Positions 29,635-43,948 of a stretch of DNA of 56,966 nt are shown piece after piece. The translations under genes and the position numbers were made by a program. The DNA is from Clostridia bacterium (GTDB lineage Bacteria; Bacillota; Clostridia; Lachnospirales; Anaerotignaceae), in contig JALCQR010000003.1 of NCBI GenBank assembly GCA_022651385.1, positions 1 through 56,966 on the forward strand, read 5' to 3'. Within the stretch, counting starts at the first letter, position 1; every line of letters starts with the position of its first letter. Under the pieces are notes generated by a model, which saw only the letters and a program-made list of their open reading frames with translations, was not told the DNA's origin and ran no database searches.

Positions 29635-29669
29635 AAGCAAAGTACGTTGGCCCGCCGTACTACAGCTTT
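29635..29669 (-). terminator. Riboswitch-linked terminator of the cobalamin operon
   Basis: On the minus strand AAAGC, a 3-base bulge, AGTACG, a 9-base loop, CGTACT, a 2-base bulge and GCTTT, followed by ATTTTATTTTGG (29622-29634). It lies between the aptamer and cbiK, so it is the likely expression platform. Confidence 0.8.
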
Positions 29670-29675
29670 CTTTCA

Positions 29676-29828
29676 AAAAAGGCAGGTCTTCTGACTTAGG
29701 CTTACGCTGTCTGCGCCTTCCCGTATAATACAGTGACTTTATGCAGACATTAAAAACCATTACAGCGGCGGCACCGTGAAGGAATTCCTTACTTCCCTAT
29801 TATCCGACTAAAAGCCGGCACCTTTAAG
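29676..29828 (-). promoter_or_regulatory. Cobalamin riboswitch aptamer
   Basis: On the minus strand the aptamer has the 5' GGTGCCGGC segment, GGGAAG, a central TTCACGGTGCCGCCGCTGTA stretch (the conserved CACTGCCCCCGCA.CTGT region in variant form), and near its 3' end GTCAGAAGACCTGCC, the B12 box. AAAGG and CCTTT close the P1 helix. The terminator between it and cbiK fits ligand-induced repression of all 18 genes from cbiK to cbiC. Confidence 0.93.
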
Positions 29829-29843
29829 AAATATATTGTAATT

Positions 29844-32214: not shown

Positions 32215-32232
32215 ACTGAGTTTTTATTAATA

Positions 32233-32560
32233 TGAGCAAGTCTGTAAGCCGGGTTCTGTATTAGACGGTCATCTATCTTGGTACACCGTTGCCGGTGTCA
32301 TCATGCGGTCACATATATAAGCAGGACGAGCAATCCCTTTGCGCTTAACCGACCTTGCTTCAGGTGGGGTTTACAGAGCCCCGTATGTTACCATACAGGC
32401 GGTGAGCTCTTACCTCACCTTTCCATCCTTACCGTAAATACGGCGGTTTATTTCTGTTGCACTTTCCTTGGAGTCACCTCCACCGGCCGTTAACCGGCAC
32501 CCTGCTCTGCGAAGCCCGGACTTTCCTCTCCCAAAGGAGCGACCATCTGGCTTACTCACT
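32233..32560 (-). ncRNA. rnpB: RNase P RNA (class A)
   Basis: The catalytic RNA that matures tRNA 5' ends. The minus strand carries the universal GAGGAAAGTCCGGGCTTCGC and AGAGCAGGGTGCC (CR-I), then AAAGTGCAACAGAAA. The 3' CR-V stretch AGAACCCGGCTTACAGACTT follows. The 5' TGAGTAAG and 3' CTTGCTCA pair as helix P1 with one G-U. GGTAAGAGCTCACC forms P12-like pairing. The layout fits the A type rather than the Bacillus B type. A promoter lies at 32567-32595, within or next to the end of the kinase gene, so transcription starts near 32560. Confidence 0.97.
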
Positions 32561-40288: not shown

Positions 40289-40331
40289 TAATGGTATATA
40301 ATGCCTTTTTTTGATTCGAGGTGTGACTGCA

Positions 40332-42239
40332 TTGTTGAGCAATATAGATTATGAAGTTTGTGCACTTATAATACTTATAATGATTTTAGCGCTGTTAAAA
40401 GTTGAAAACAATGTTAGAACTTTTTCTAACAAAATTTTTCTTTTTATTGTTATATTTGGAATTTTTGATGTATTTCTTGATATTATATCAACTGTTATGG
40501 TTTCGTTCCCCAAACTGTATCCTGCCTTTTGGCAGGACATATGTCTGTGGGTTTTTTATGCTTTTCAGCTTTTATTGCCTTTTACTTTTTTTCTTTATGT
40601 TACTTCGCTTCATAACTCGTTAAAAAAGAAGTCTCTGCCGGTTATATTTTTATGCAGTATATTTTTCATTATAATGACAGTAATACTTATTACAAACAAA
40701 TTTACAGGTCTGCTTTTTAGCTTTGACAGTTCAGGAACTTATGTAAGAGGACCTTTTTATCCGTTTATTTATATTTATGGATTAATATATATGATAATTG
40801 TATTAATAGACGCTTATATACATAAGAAATTTATGCAGAAGAAATATTTTATAGCAATAATTGAGTTTATGATTATTAATATAGTTACTGTATTGGTTCA
40901 GTTTTTTAGAAACGATATTTTGCTTACAGGATTAGGCATTGCAATAGCACTTATTGCGCTTTTAATTACAGTAAACAATCCATATGAAATGGTTGACTCT
41001 CTGACAGGGCTTTTTGACGCTTCAGGTCTTAAGGAATCCCTCACTCATTGCTATAATATGCATAGCGGAGTATGTCACATAATAGTAATAGCCTGTGATA
41101 ACGTTAAGAGAATAAATCTTGTTTTCGGTTTTGAAGAAGGAAGCAAACAAATTAAGGCTATAGCAGACATGCTCAAAAAAAGTGTCGGTAAAAAAAATGC
41201 GTTTCGGTTTGTCGGCGACCGTTTTGTGCTTTTGTGTCATGATGATAAGCAATACAGCAATGCTGTAGAAAATATAAAAACTTATTTTTCAAAACCTCAT
41301 AAAATAAATGGAATTGACGCAAAACTATCGGCATGTGTATGCTGTATTCCAAATCCGCAAATACATAAAACGCCCGAAAAACTTCTCGACTTTCTCGATT
41401 ACATAGTTGGCAGAGCAAAAAAAATGGGAAACGGAACACTTCTTTATGTTGACAGAGAAATAGAAGCTCAATATTTTAGGCGCAGAAAAATTGAAGAATA
41501 CTTGTATAAAGCAGTTGAGCAAAAACTATTCGAGGTATATTTTCAACCTATTTATTCCACAAAAAGCGGCTGTTTTGAAAGTGCCGAAATCTTGGTTCGG
41601 CTAAGGCATCCTACACTTGGAATGATTTCACCGTCAGAATTTATACCTATTGCCGAAAGCAACGGCGAGATAAATCAGGTTCAAAACTGTATACTGCACA
41701 AGGCATGCGAGTTTATAAACGAATGGCCTGAAATACTTACAAAAATAAATTATTTTAAATTCAATATGTCACCTGCTATATTTTTAAATACTAATTTAAG
41801 CGAGGATATAATTAAAATTATTAAGTCATACGATATATCGCCTTCCGTTTTTCAGTTTGAAATCACTGAGACCACGGCAACAGTATATGAAAAAGAACTT
41901 ATGCTTTGGGTTAAAAACATAAAAAATGAGGGGGCCGGATTATGTCTTGACGATTTCGGCTCAGGTTTTGCAAATCTCAACGTTATAATGAAGCTTCCGT
42001 TTGATGTCATTAAAATAGACCGTTCAATGCTTATTGATGCTTTGCTTGACAAAAAATCAAAGGTATTATACGAAAGTATAGTAAAAATGATAAGACATCT
42101 TGGATTTACGGTGGTTTCCGAGGGAGCTGAAACCGAGGAGGATATAGAATTTTTACACTCAATAAACGTTGACTGTATTCAGGGGTATTATTATTCTAAA
42201 CCTTTGCCGCCAGATGATTTCGTAAAACTTATACTTTAA
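40332..42239 (+). CDS. Membrane c-di-GMP phosphodiesterase with degenerate GGDEF and EAL domain
   Basis: A 635-residue protein. The first 210 residues have about seven membrane helices and no known sensor domain. A GGDEF-like domain (about 221-370) begins DSLTGLFDASG, but the active-site motif is RFVGDRF, so cyclase activity is unlikely. The EAL domain (about 395-635) keeps the catalytic set: EIL (near 419) in AEILVRLRHP, the asparagine in FNMSP, FEITET, CLDDFGSGFANL (near 540), IKIDRSM, SEGAET and QGYYYSKP. It is therefore probably an active phosphodiesterase for cyclic di-GMP. I chose TTG 40332 behind GAGGTG; TTG and GTG starts nearby are possible. A perfect 16-bp tandem repeat spans the stop. 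Confidence 0.9.
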   Translation: MLSNIDYEVCALIILIMILALLKVENNVRTFSNKIFLFIVIFGIFDVFLDIISTVMVSFPKLYPAFWQDICLWVFYAFQLLLPFTFFLYVTSLHNSLKKKSLPVIFLCSIFFIIMTVILITNKFTGLLFSFDSSGTYVRGPFYPFIYIYGLIYMIIVLIDAYIHKKFMQKKYFIAIIEFMIINIVTVLVQFFRNDILLTGLGIAIALIALLITVNNPYEMVDSLTGLFDASGLKESLTHCYNMHSGVCHIIVIACDNVKRINLVFGFEEGSKQIKAIADMLKKSVGKKNAFRFVGDRFVLLCHDDKQYSNAVENIKTYFSKPHKINGIDAKLSACVCCIPNPQIHKTPEKLLDFLDYIVGRAKKMGNGTLLYVDREIEAQYFRRRKIEEYLYKAVEQKLFEVYFQPIYSTKSGCFESAEILVRLRHPTLGMISPSEFIPIAESNGEINQVQNCILHKACEFINEWPEILTKINYFKFNMSPAIFLNTNLSEDIIKIIKSYDISPSVFQFEITETTATVYEKELMLWVKNIKNEGAGLCLDDFGSGFANLNVIMKLPFDVIKIDRSMLIDALLDKKSKVLYESIVKMIRHLGFTVVSEGAETEEDIEFLHSINVDCIQGYYYSKPLPPDDFVKLIL

Positions 42240-42260
42240 TTAAATTATACTTTAATTAAA
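42229..42260. repeat. Perfect 16-bp tandem duplication over the stop codon of the EAL gene
   Basis: TTATACTTTAATTAAA occurs at 42229-42244 and again at 42245-42260. The first copy contains the stop codon of the EAL gene. It could be a replication slippage product. Confidence 0.75.
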
Positions 42261-42533
42261 AAAGACATATCCACAAAAAACGTAGATATGTTTAGAGGCT
42301 GTCGATAAAATCGACAGCCTTTTGTCAAAATCCTGATTTTGACAAGTACTGTATGTATAAACAGATGAGTTCCAGAGGCAAAAATGCCTTGAAACTCACT
42401 GTTTTCCTCGACGGAAATGAATTCCGTCTGCGGATTAAAGTTGGGAAACTTACTGTTTCCCAAACCCTTCTGCTTCACTTTAAAATTTTTGACGAGTTGG
42501 ACTTATAACAATAATACGTAGATATGTCTTTTT
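42259..42533. terminator. Remains of a shared bidirectional terminator, interrupted
   Basis: AAAAAGACATATC (42259-42271) pairs with GATATGTCTTTTT (42521-42533). Removing the insert and one direct-repeat copy brings the two arms together around a 13-base loop. That would be a symmetric terminator between the convergent EAL and glyQS genes. Today the arms are 249 bases apart, although GACATATC can still pair with GATATGT at 42285-42291. Confidence 0.5.
42280..42527. repeat. Hairpin-rich repeat element flanked by a 12-bp direct repeat
   Basis: A 224-base insert (42292-42515) is bracketed by ACGTAGATATGT at 42280-42291 and 42516-42527. It holds at least five hairpins: GGCTGTCGA/TCGACAGCC (42297-42319), TTGTCAAAAT/ATTTTGACAA (42322-42345), GAGTTCCAGAGGCA and partner (42367-42396), ACGGAA/TTCCGT (about 42411-42427) and TTGGGAAA/TTTCCCAA (about 42441-42463). 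There is no coding gene in it; a 77-codon frame on the minus strand is a by-product of the repeat. Its ends show no obvious terminal inverted repeats. It looks like a non-autonomous, structured mobile repeat, which is inference. Confidence 0.6.
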
Positions 42534-42544
42534 ATTTTGTTTAA

Positions 42545-43948
42545 TTAAAACATAATCTTTTCAGAAATATAACTTTCAAGCTCGTCAATCTTAATTCTGA
42601 CTTGCTCCATTGAATCTCTGTCTCTTACGGTAACGGAGCTGTCAGTTTCTGTATCAAAATCTATTGTAATACAGAAAGGAGTGCCGATTTCATCCTGTCT
42701 TCTGTATCTTTTTCCTATACTTCCGGCCTCATCATAATCAACATTGAATTTTGAAGCAAGCATTGAATGGATTTCCTCTGCTTTGCCGCTCAGCTTTTTG
42801 CTTAAAGGAAGCACGGCTGCTTTAATTGGAGCAAGTGCCGGATGAAGATGAAGTACTGTTCTTACATCTTCTTTTCCATTTTTCACGCTTACAACTTCCT
42901 CATCATATGCGTCACATAAGAAAGCCAGTGTTACACGGTCTGCCCCAAGCGAAGGCTCGATACAGTAAGGAATATATTTCTCATTCTTGTCTTGGTCAAA
43001 ATATGTCAGGTCCTCACCCGAGAACTGCTGATGCTGTTTAAGGTCAAAATCAGTTCTGTCGGCAATACCCCAAAGCTCACCCCAGCCGAACGGGAAAAGA
43101 TATTCAATGTCTGTAGTAGCTTTGCTGTAATGGCTTAATTCTTCTGGAGAATGGTCACGCACTCTTGTATTTTCAGTAGTAAGGCCAAGATTTTTAAGGA
43201 AGTCTACAGCAAATGATTTCCAGTATTTAAACCAGTCAAGGTCGGTACCCGGCTCACAGAAAAACTCAAGCTCCATTTGTTCAAACTCTCTTGTTCTGAA
43301 AGTGAAGTTACCCGGGGTTATCTCGTTTCTGAATGATTTTCCTATCTGTCCTATACCGAAAGGAATCTTCTTTCTCGTTGTTCTCTGAACATTTTTAAAA
43401 TTGACAAAAATACCCTGAGCCGTTTCAGGACGAAGATACACAATATTTTTGCTGTCTTCCGTAACACCCTGAAAAGTTTTAAACATAAGGTTAAACTGTC
43501 TTATGTCTGTAAAATTGTGGCCGCCGCATGACGGACATGCAATATTGTTTTCTTTAATGAAATTAACCATTTTTTCATTGCTCCAGCCGTCGGCTACTTC
43601 TCCCTGATGTCCGTGAGTGTTAAGGTATTCCTCAATTATTTTGTCTGCTCTGAACCTCTCGTGACAGTCCTTGCAGTCCATAAGAGGATCGCTGAATCCG
43701 CCTACATGGCCCGAAGCAACCCAAGTCTGAGGGTTCATAAGAATTGCACAGTCTACTCCAACATTGTACTTACTCTCCTGTACAAACTTTTTCCACCATA
43801 ATTTTTTAACATTATTTTTAAGCTCAACGCCAAGAGGACCGTAATCCCATGTATTTGCCAGTCCGCCGTAAATCTCGCTTCCCGGATATACAAATCCTCG
43901 TGCTTTAGCAAGCCCAACTATTTTTTCCATAGTCTTTTCAACTGCCAT
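42545..43948 (-). CDS. glyQS: Glycyl-tRNA synthetase, alpha2 dimer type
   Basis: Charges tRNA-Gly. The protein has 467 residues and belongs to the class II single-chain type of bacteria such as Bacillus relatives and Clostridia. [30 protein letters not shown] is typical (key residues KARGFV and DYGPLG). The zinc site includes [11 protein letters not shown] and [20 protein letters not shown] and [13 protein letters not shown] form motif 2 vicinity, and [16 protein letters not shown] follows. The C-terminus has the anticodon-binding domain. The ATG at 43946-43948 has AAGGAGGAG upstream, while a longer frame start would run into the T-box leader. Regulated by tRNA-Gly through the T-box. Confidence 0.96.

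Follow-up and report, generated by a model that had tools for sequence, protein, structure and literature searches.

A hairpin-rich MITE of Anaerotignaceae and an IS1182-family element lie between duplicated terminator stem-loops

The hairpin-rich repeat between two convergent genes of the window (the whole stretch of DNA that was analysed, 56,966 nucleotides of a Clostridia bacterium contig) is very probably a MITE moved by an IS1182-family transposase, which chooses intrinsic terminators by the shape of their hairpin and duplicates the whole stem-loop upon insertion. Copies of the repeat are dispersed in its own genome and family, whole hairpins are duplicated beside them, a related genome carries one hairpin at a site without the element, and matching ends are found on an IS1182-family element that duplicates hairpins in the same way.

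At the window locus, an ORF encoding a GGDEF/EAL protein (40311-42239, + strand; Pfam EAL and GGDEF over cut-off) has its 3' end towards the element, and the convergent glycine--tRNA ligase gene lies downstream (ORF 42545-43948, - strand; Pfam; NCBIfam NF003211 and TIGR00389 over cut-off, the former with 707 bits versus a cut-off of 312). The stops of these genes, at 42239 and 42545, are 305 bases apart. The region folds at -102.4 kcal/mol compared with a mean of -51.5 kcal/mol for shuffled sequences (z -11; 0 of 200 shuffles as good). The first-pass annotation had described convergent genes, a hairpin-rich insert and a 12-bp direct repeat around 224 bases, and in these observations it was right: the 12 bp ACGTAGATATGT occur at 42280-42291 and again at 42516-42527, and the fold contains five hairpins.

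The same annotation read the locus as an insertion into the loop of a terminator, with a 12-bp duplication and the hairpin split between the two flanks. The exact repeat agrees with such an event, and so do the joined flanks, which with the element removed give a strong symmetric hairpin (-15.3 kcal/mol), just as had been anticipated. However, ACGTAGATATGT is only the best-kept part of a 28-nt direct repeat (42264-42291 and 42500-42527; 21 of 28 positions identical, 75%), the left flank alone folds into a complete terminator hairpin (-9.1 kcal/mol), each side of many other copies carries a complete hairpin, and an empty site shows just one, all of which makes loop insertion very improbable. 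The target duplication in the window is the whole terminator stem-loop, about 28 bp and not 12 bp in its loop, with a full hairpin originally on each side. Its left copy (42259-42294, boundaries ±3 nt) folds alone and follows the duplication pattern of other copies, while the right one (42500-42533) has a decayed 5' arm and folds at -3.0 kcal/mol, with the T-tract kept. The duplication is decayed, and the flank repeat of the window alone reaches just p = 0.010 against mis-paired flanks.

The MITE itself, recognised by its copies in the genome and the family, spans 205 bp on the + strand (42295-42499, boundaries ±3 nt), its ends being set by copies with clear target duplications, and is built of five hairpins. 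All its parts are given on the + strand. The left terminal inverted repeat (TIR), GAGGCTGTCGA, is doubled into hairpin 1 (42295-42320), as seen from its inverted repeats and from the comparison of copies, and precedes hairpin 2 (42322-42345; inverted repeat and fold). The core is composed of hairpins P1 (42360-42404; folded, with arms that co-vary over copies), P2 (42410-42428; fold and co-variation) and P3 (42441-42463; inverted repeat, fold and co-variation), and the right end TTTTTGACGAGTTG (42486-42499) is, by eye, a diverged form of the consensus TTTTTTGACAGTCTG. The consensus TIRs, CAGGGTGTCGAAAAA on the left and TTTTTTGACAGTCTG on the right, are imperfect and have diverged in the window copy, yet they match those of the IS1182-family element described below. 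Two further statements of the annotation hence need correction, namely that terminal inverted repeats are lacking and that the element is not a standard MITE: with TIRs and a target duplication it does fit a MITE, albeit one with an unusual type of target. The only ORF listed over the element is antisense and encodes 77 aa, far too short for a transposase.

Concerning the internal organisation, the MITE core is modular, with a longer and different P1 region in some copies (L053 and L034), of which L053 has AAGGCAATAAATCCCTATTTCTGC twice. An extra three-hairpin module of about 60-66 nt was observed at one of two fixed places in 14 of 16 stretches fetched from genus g2, most of which were picked because their matches were split. 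It lies inside P1 in L202-L204, L209, L210 and L215, and in the P3 loop in L205-L208, L211-L213, L215 and L218, as well as in L038 and L042. By eye, the P1 module reversed resembles the P3 module, and L210 carries the P1 module twice in tandem.

As expected for a mobile, structured and gene-less repeat, which is what the annotation had proposed, the element is not confined to the window. A search of its own genome yielded 33 matches at E<=0.001, with 23 separate places of at least 60 nt including the window; the other 22 show 73-94% identity to the window copy, and of the 10 remaining matches, 8 are antisense matches of one hairpin at those same places. Matches occur in 43 of the 58 family genomes, which represent 15 of the 17 genera. 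With a covariance model, the core was detected in 52 of the 392 genomes that sample the order: besides 43 in the window's family, these comprise nine from two more families, namely seven from f12 and two from f17. Three records of a named collection contain an exact 29-base core pattern, two of them being Lachnospiraceae MAGs and one an uncultured Clostridia bacterium. A lack of further copies would have refuted the annotation, and these searches contradict it.

To assess the duplication of the target, each of 71 copies from the own genome, relatives and named records was searched for the strongest direct repeat linking its two flanks. The set excludes a duplicate record (L033), copies short of flank, and core matches that fall short of 1e-14 or stop before position 80 of the model. 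The null consisted of all 71x70 mis-paired flank comparisons, some orthologous pairs included. The flank repeat lies above the 99th percentile of this null in 36 of the 71 copies and above the 95th in 38, and does not exceed the 99th in the remaining 35; several copies are orthologous (those of genomes G001, G004 and G005), hence not all are independent. Half of the 12 own-genome copies analysed have p<0.01.

Most of these flank repeats are complete hairpins. For example, L079 has the same 27 bases, AAACATGCCCTGCAAAAAGGCATGTTT, on either side, which form a complete stem-loop, and exact duplicate stem-loop pairs are also present at L048, L051, L068, L084 and L092. Among the 37 MITE copies scoring at least 13, at least six pairs form inward from the ends of the duplication in 25 left and 21 right hairpins, versus 4.5% of null windows taken singly and 9-11% for the better of two, the latter for MITE and IS sets. 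A T-tract to the right or an A-tract to the left of the hairpin accompanies 30 of the 37 sites, compared with 20% of random positions. The suggestion that terminator hairpins would be the target at other copies as well is thereby borne out.

An autonomous element with the same habit is found in a genome of a related genus (G021), in which an IS of 1483-1484 bp occurs in 11 near-identical copies at 10 distinct sites, the flanks of L100 and L102 being identical. Its transposase scores 376.2 bits with the IS1182 model NF033551 (cut-off 270) and is over cut-off for PF13751 and PF05598; together with its TIRs and palindromic target, this places it in the IS1182 family. The IS starts with CAGACTGTCAAAAAA (the TIR) and ends with GACAGTCTG, and each copy lies between duplicated hairpins of 20-35 bp, 10 different hairpins in total, which are free of mismatches in 9 of the 11 cases and diverged in two (L105 and L109). 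At least six pairs form from the ends in all 22 hairpin copies (11 of 11 on each side; null 5.5%), and a T-tract on the right or an A-tract on the left is present at 10 of 10 sites, against 20% of random positions. In five of the 11 copies a + strand ORF ends 32-39 nt upstream of the IS. From the first 40 and last 45 bases of L095 and others, by eye, a terminator-like hairpin with a T-run is seen just inside the left end and another hairpin at the right end, and these may shield the transposase gene from read-through.

No orientation bias of the elements relative to the terminator emerged: A versus T runs stand at 6:5 for the 11 IS copies and at 19:10, with 8 ties, for the 37 MITE copies. The idea that the element is always co-directional with the upstream gene was dropped. 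In terms of tract calls, a right T-tract alone is found in 4 of 10 IS sites and a left A-tract alone in none, and the MITE sites are even (5 and 4). Neighbouring genes are convergent at 4 of 11 IS and 18 of 70 MITE loci, according to crude ORF calls that are too noisy to be relied on.

The ends connect the two elements. At its right end the MITE consensus reads TTTTTTGACAGTCTG, which when reverse-complemented gives the left end of the G021 IS, CAGACTGTCAAAAAA. Next to the duplication, GACAGTCTG is matched at seven or more of its nine positions in 17 of the 37 MITE copies (null 1.4%), the left end is matched in 25 (null 0.6%) and both ends in 16, while 20 of these 37 copies with a flank repeat show no good right-end match. 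IS loci in three more genomes (G025, G023 and G014) have similar ends directly adjoining a hairpin. The core model, in turn, gave one weak match among IS loci (E 0.0016, L101), so that IS and MITE have just their ends in common. Because the core is not found in the partner IS, the MITE did not arise from this IS through deletion alone.

Whether the partner is the right one has to be weighed against its distribution. PF13751 is found in just 6 of the 58 family genomes (PF05598 in 5), yet the MITE is in 43 of them, and within the window's own genome the transposase was not found, either with PF13751 and PF05598 at 0.001 or with the protein at 1e-20. Together with the core's absence from the partner IS, the sparse transposase would suit a different, unseen enzyme moving the MITE, its IS1182-like ends being the outcome of convergence. 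This is unlikely in view of a consensus right end identical to the IS end and of the peculiar duplication of whole hairpins common to MITE and IS. We therefore favour an IS1182-family transposase, and the window copy would have been moved by one of the G021 type or a similar one. The transposase is detected at 1e-20 in 39 of the 392 genomes from the order. Of the 17 IS1182 loci examined outside the family, five show whole-hairpin duplications (L154, L159, L160, L167 and L170; families f6 and f12), one (L153) has a 15-bp repeat that is not a hairpin (p 0.011), and the other 11 show nothing above chance, several of them being cut by contig ends. At L154, in genome G068, the IS1182 copy apparently lies in a hairpin that directly abuts a second IS copy at that copy's right end, which would suit nested or adjacent insertions.

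Empty and filled sites were compared in the genus of G001, G004 and G005, the window's genus being represented by one genome. At the place of copy L090, G001 has hairpin, element and hairpin, whereas G005 has one hairpin without the element; its sequence matches both the left and the right flank of L090 through that hairpin, with an overlap of 34 bases. G004 has a single diverged hairpin there, also without the element. A second site is occupied in all three genomes, by the element in G004 and G005 (L040 and L038) and by a different copy in opposite orientation in G001. The annotation's call for empty sites in relatives is thus answered for L090, and no such site was obtained for the window copy itself. 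Tandem terminators are common in bacteria, and two of them could have existed beforehand with the repeat between them, or the pair could stem from a later duplication. The one hairpin of the empty site refutes this for the sites examined, and the 11 near-identical IS copies, which are bordered by duplicates of 10 distinct hairpins and in 9 cases show no mismatch between these, make it hardly credible in general.

Duplication upon insertion thus being the preferred reading, a mechanism can be proposed. For DDE transposases a fixed stagger of the cuts is usual, and ISfinder gives variable direct repeats for IS1182. Since the length of the duplication varies among copies of one IS yet ends at the hairpin feet, the stagger appears to be set by structure. 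The transposase would pick an intrinsic terminator via its hairpin shape and attach the element on each strand to the outer (5') foot of the stem-loop, the attack presumably falling at the base of a cruciform or hairpin that has been extruded. Gap repair would then copy the entire stem-loop, yielding a complete hairpin on each side and a target duplication that equals the hairpin in length (about 20-40 bp). PMC5678879 draws a hypothetical scheme of this kind, pathway b, in which a stem-loop joined at its 5' feet would be duplicated in full, and the present elements behave accordingly.

The core hairpins pose a question of their own, i.e. whether their pairing is maintained in RNA or in DNA. 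A conserved structured RNA (a 3' UTR or small RNA) kept for its fold, with mobility incidental, would account for several features. In P2 and P3, 97.4% of cells are paired and 10 of 16 pairs have two-sided changes (52 sequences), with 65 such cells versus 15.9 in shuffles (0 of 500 as many); the pairing of the P1 arms reaches 8.44, against 6.85 at most in 500 permutations of the arms; and many linker positions between stems are nearly invariant across many genera. The G-U share among deviating standard pairs is also similar to that of RNase P RNA (8/72, 0.111, versus 61/432, 0.141). Taking all standard pairs, however, G-U makes up 1.0% in the MITE and 13.4% in RNase P RNA. At deviating cells, moreover, the MITE stems have 17 G-U versus 37 A-C, the reverse of RNase P RNA with 61 versus 20 (Fisher p 5e-7, the cells not being independent). 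The RNase P figures come from 30 family genomes, those with the highest scores among 51 with a match, and refer to alifold pairs, while the MITE cells were taken from the best local helices; P1 supplies 19 of the 37 A-C cells. Hairpin 1 alone goes in the opposite direction (5 G-U and 1 A-C). No Rfam family is over gathering score at the element, for the window copy and four other copies. An RNA kept for its fold is thus rather improbable, somewhat more so than an unseen transposase. Because A-C mismatches exceed G-U pairs, unlike in RNase P RNA, the comparison leans towards stem pairing being maintained at the DNA level, through template-switch correction or DNA hairpins, and not via selection on RNA. 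Elsewhere in the window, a class A RNase P RNA (32229-32558, - strand) and a cobalamin riboswitch (29664-29840, - strand) are over the Rfam gathering score.

A broader view, which we put forward tentatively and hold to be somewhat doubtful, is that shape serves as the measure of the target for one branch of the IS1182 transposases: the stagger would correspond to the feet of an extruded terminator cruciform, with no fixed spacing, and the duplication to one hairpin of any length. The MITEs of this branch would be palindrome arrays, whose pairing is kept at the DNA level over several families of one order because DNA hairpins matter for transposition.

Other mobile elements share some of these traits. 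Group IIC introns also insert at intrinsic terminators, without target duplication, and carry a ribozyme; the window's Rfam matches at gathering score are RNase P and cobalamin alone, with no group II intron among them and none at the element. The REP/PATE elements of IS200/IS605 insert without target duplication, and copies of the window family have such duplications. The closest parallels, IS1272 and TnSha1 of staphylococci, likewise have an IS1182-type transposase and insert at inverted repeats that share no sequence consensus. These are often terminators, as RNA-seq confirmed for five of the seven TnSha1 sites that were sequenced (PMC4923244). As far as the consulted parts of these papers describe, IS1272 replaces inverted repeats with no target duplication (PMC5678879), and both insert in hairpins with deletion and no duplication (PMC4923244), the stem-loop being replaced or partly deleted; here, in contrast, the whole stem-loop is present on both sides. 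Bacterial MITEs in general, in the sections of PMC10969869 at hand, are similarly short, gene-less and dispersed, with TIRs, target duplications, strong secondary structure and an autonomous partner elsewhere; unlike them, the present family has a terminator-like hairpin as target and a duplication whose length follows it. The pneumococcal BOX, RUP and SPRITE repeats, likened by description alone, are modular, interspersed and at times nested, but no duplication of a whole terminator is described for them in the portions consulted (PMC3049150, PMC10969869). In the open-access literature searched, as far as its texts were available, we recognised no report of whole-terminator duplication by an IS1182 element, nor of this repeat family. 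The IS1182 family and stem-loop targeting are hence known, and the duplication mode and the repeat family are not in that literature.

The duplication provides the missing counterpart to the stem-loop deletion of IS1272, and the empty and filled sites make a tractable set. Duplications of 20-35 bp among near-identical IS copies of one genome, ending at hairpin feet, render shape-directed target choice directly testable. Finally, the insertion mode suggests entry between genes with little harm, as one hairpin and a T-tract stay at the far side.
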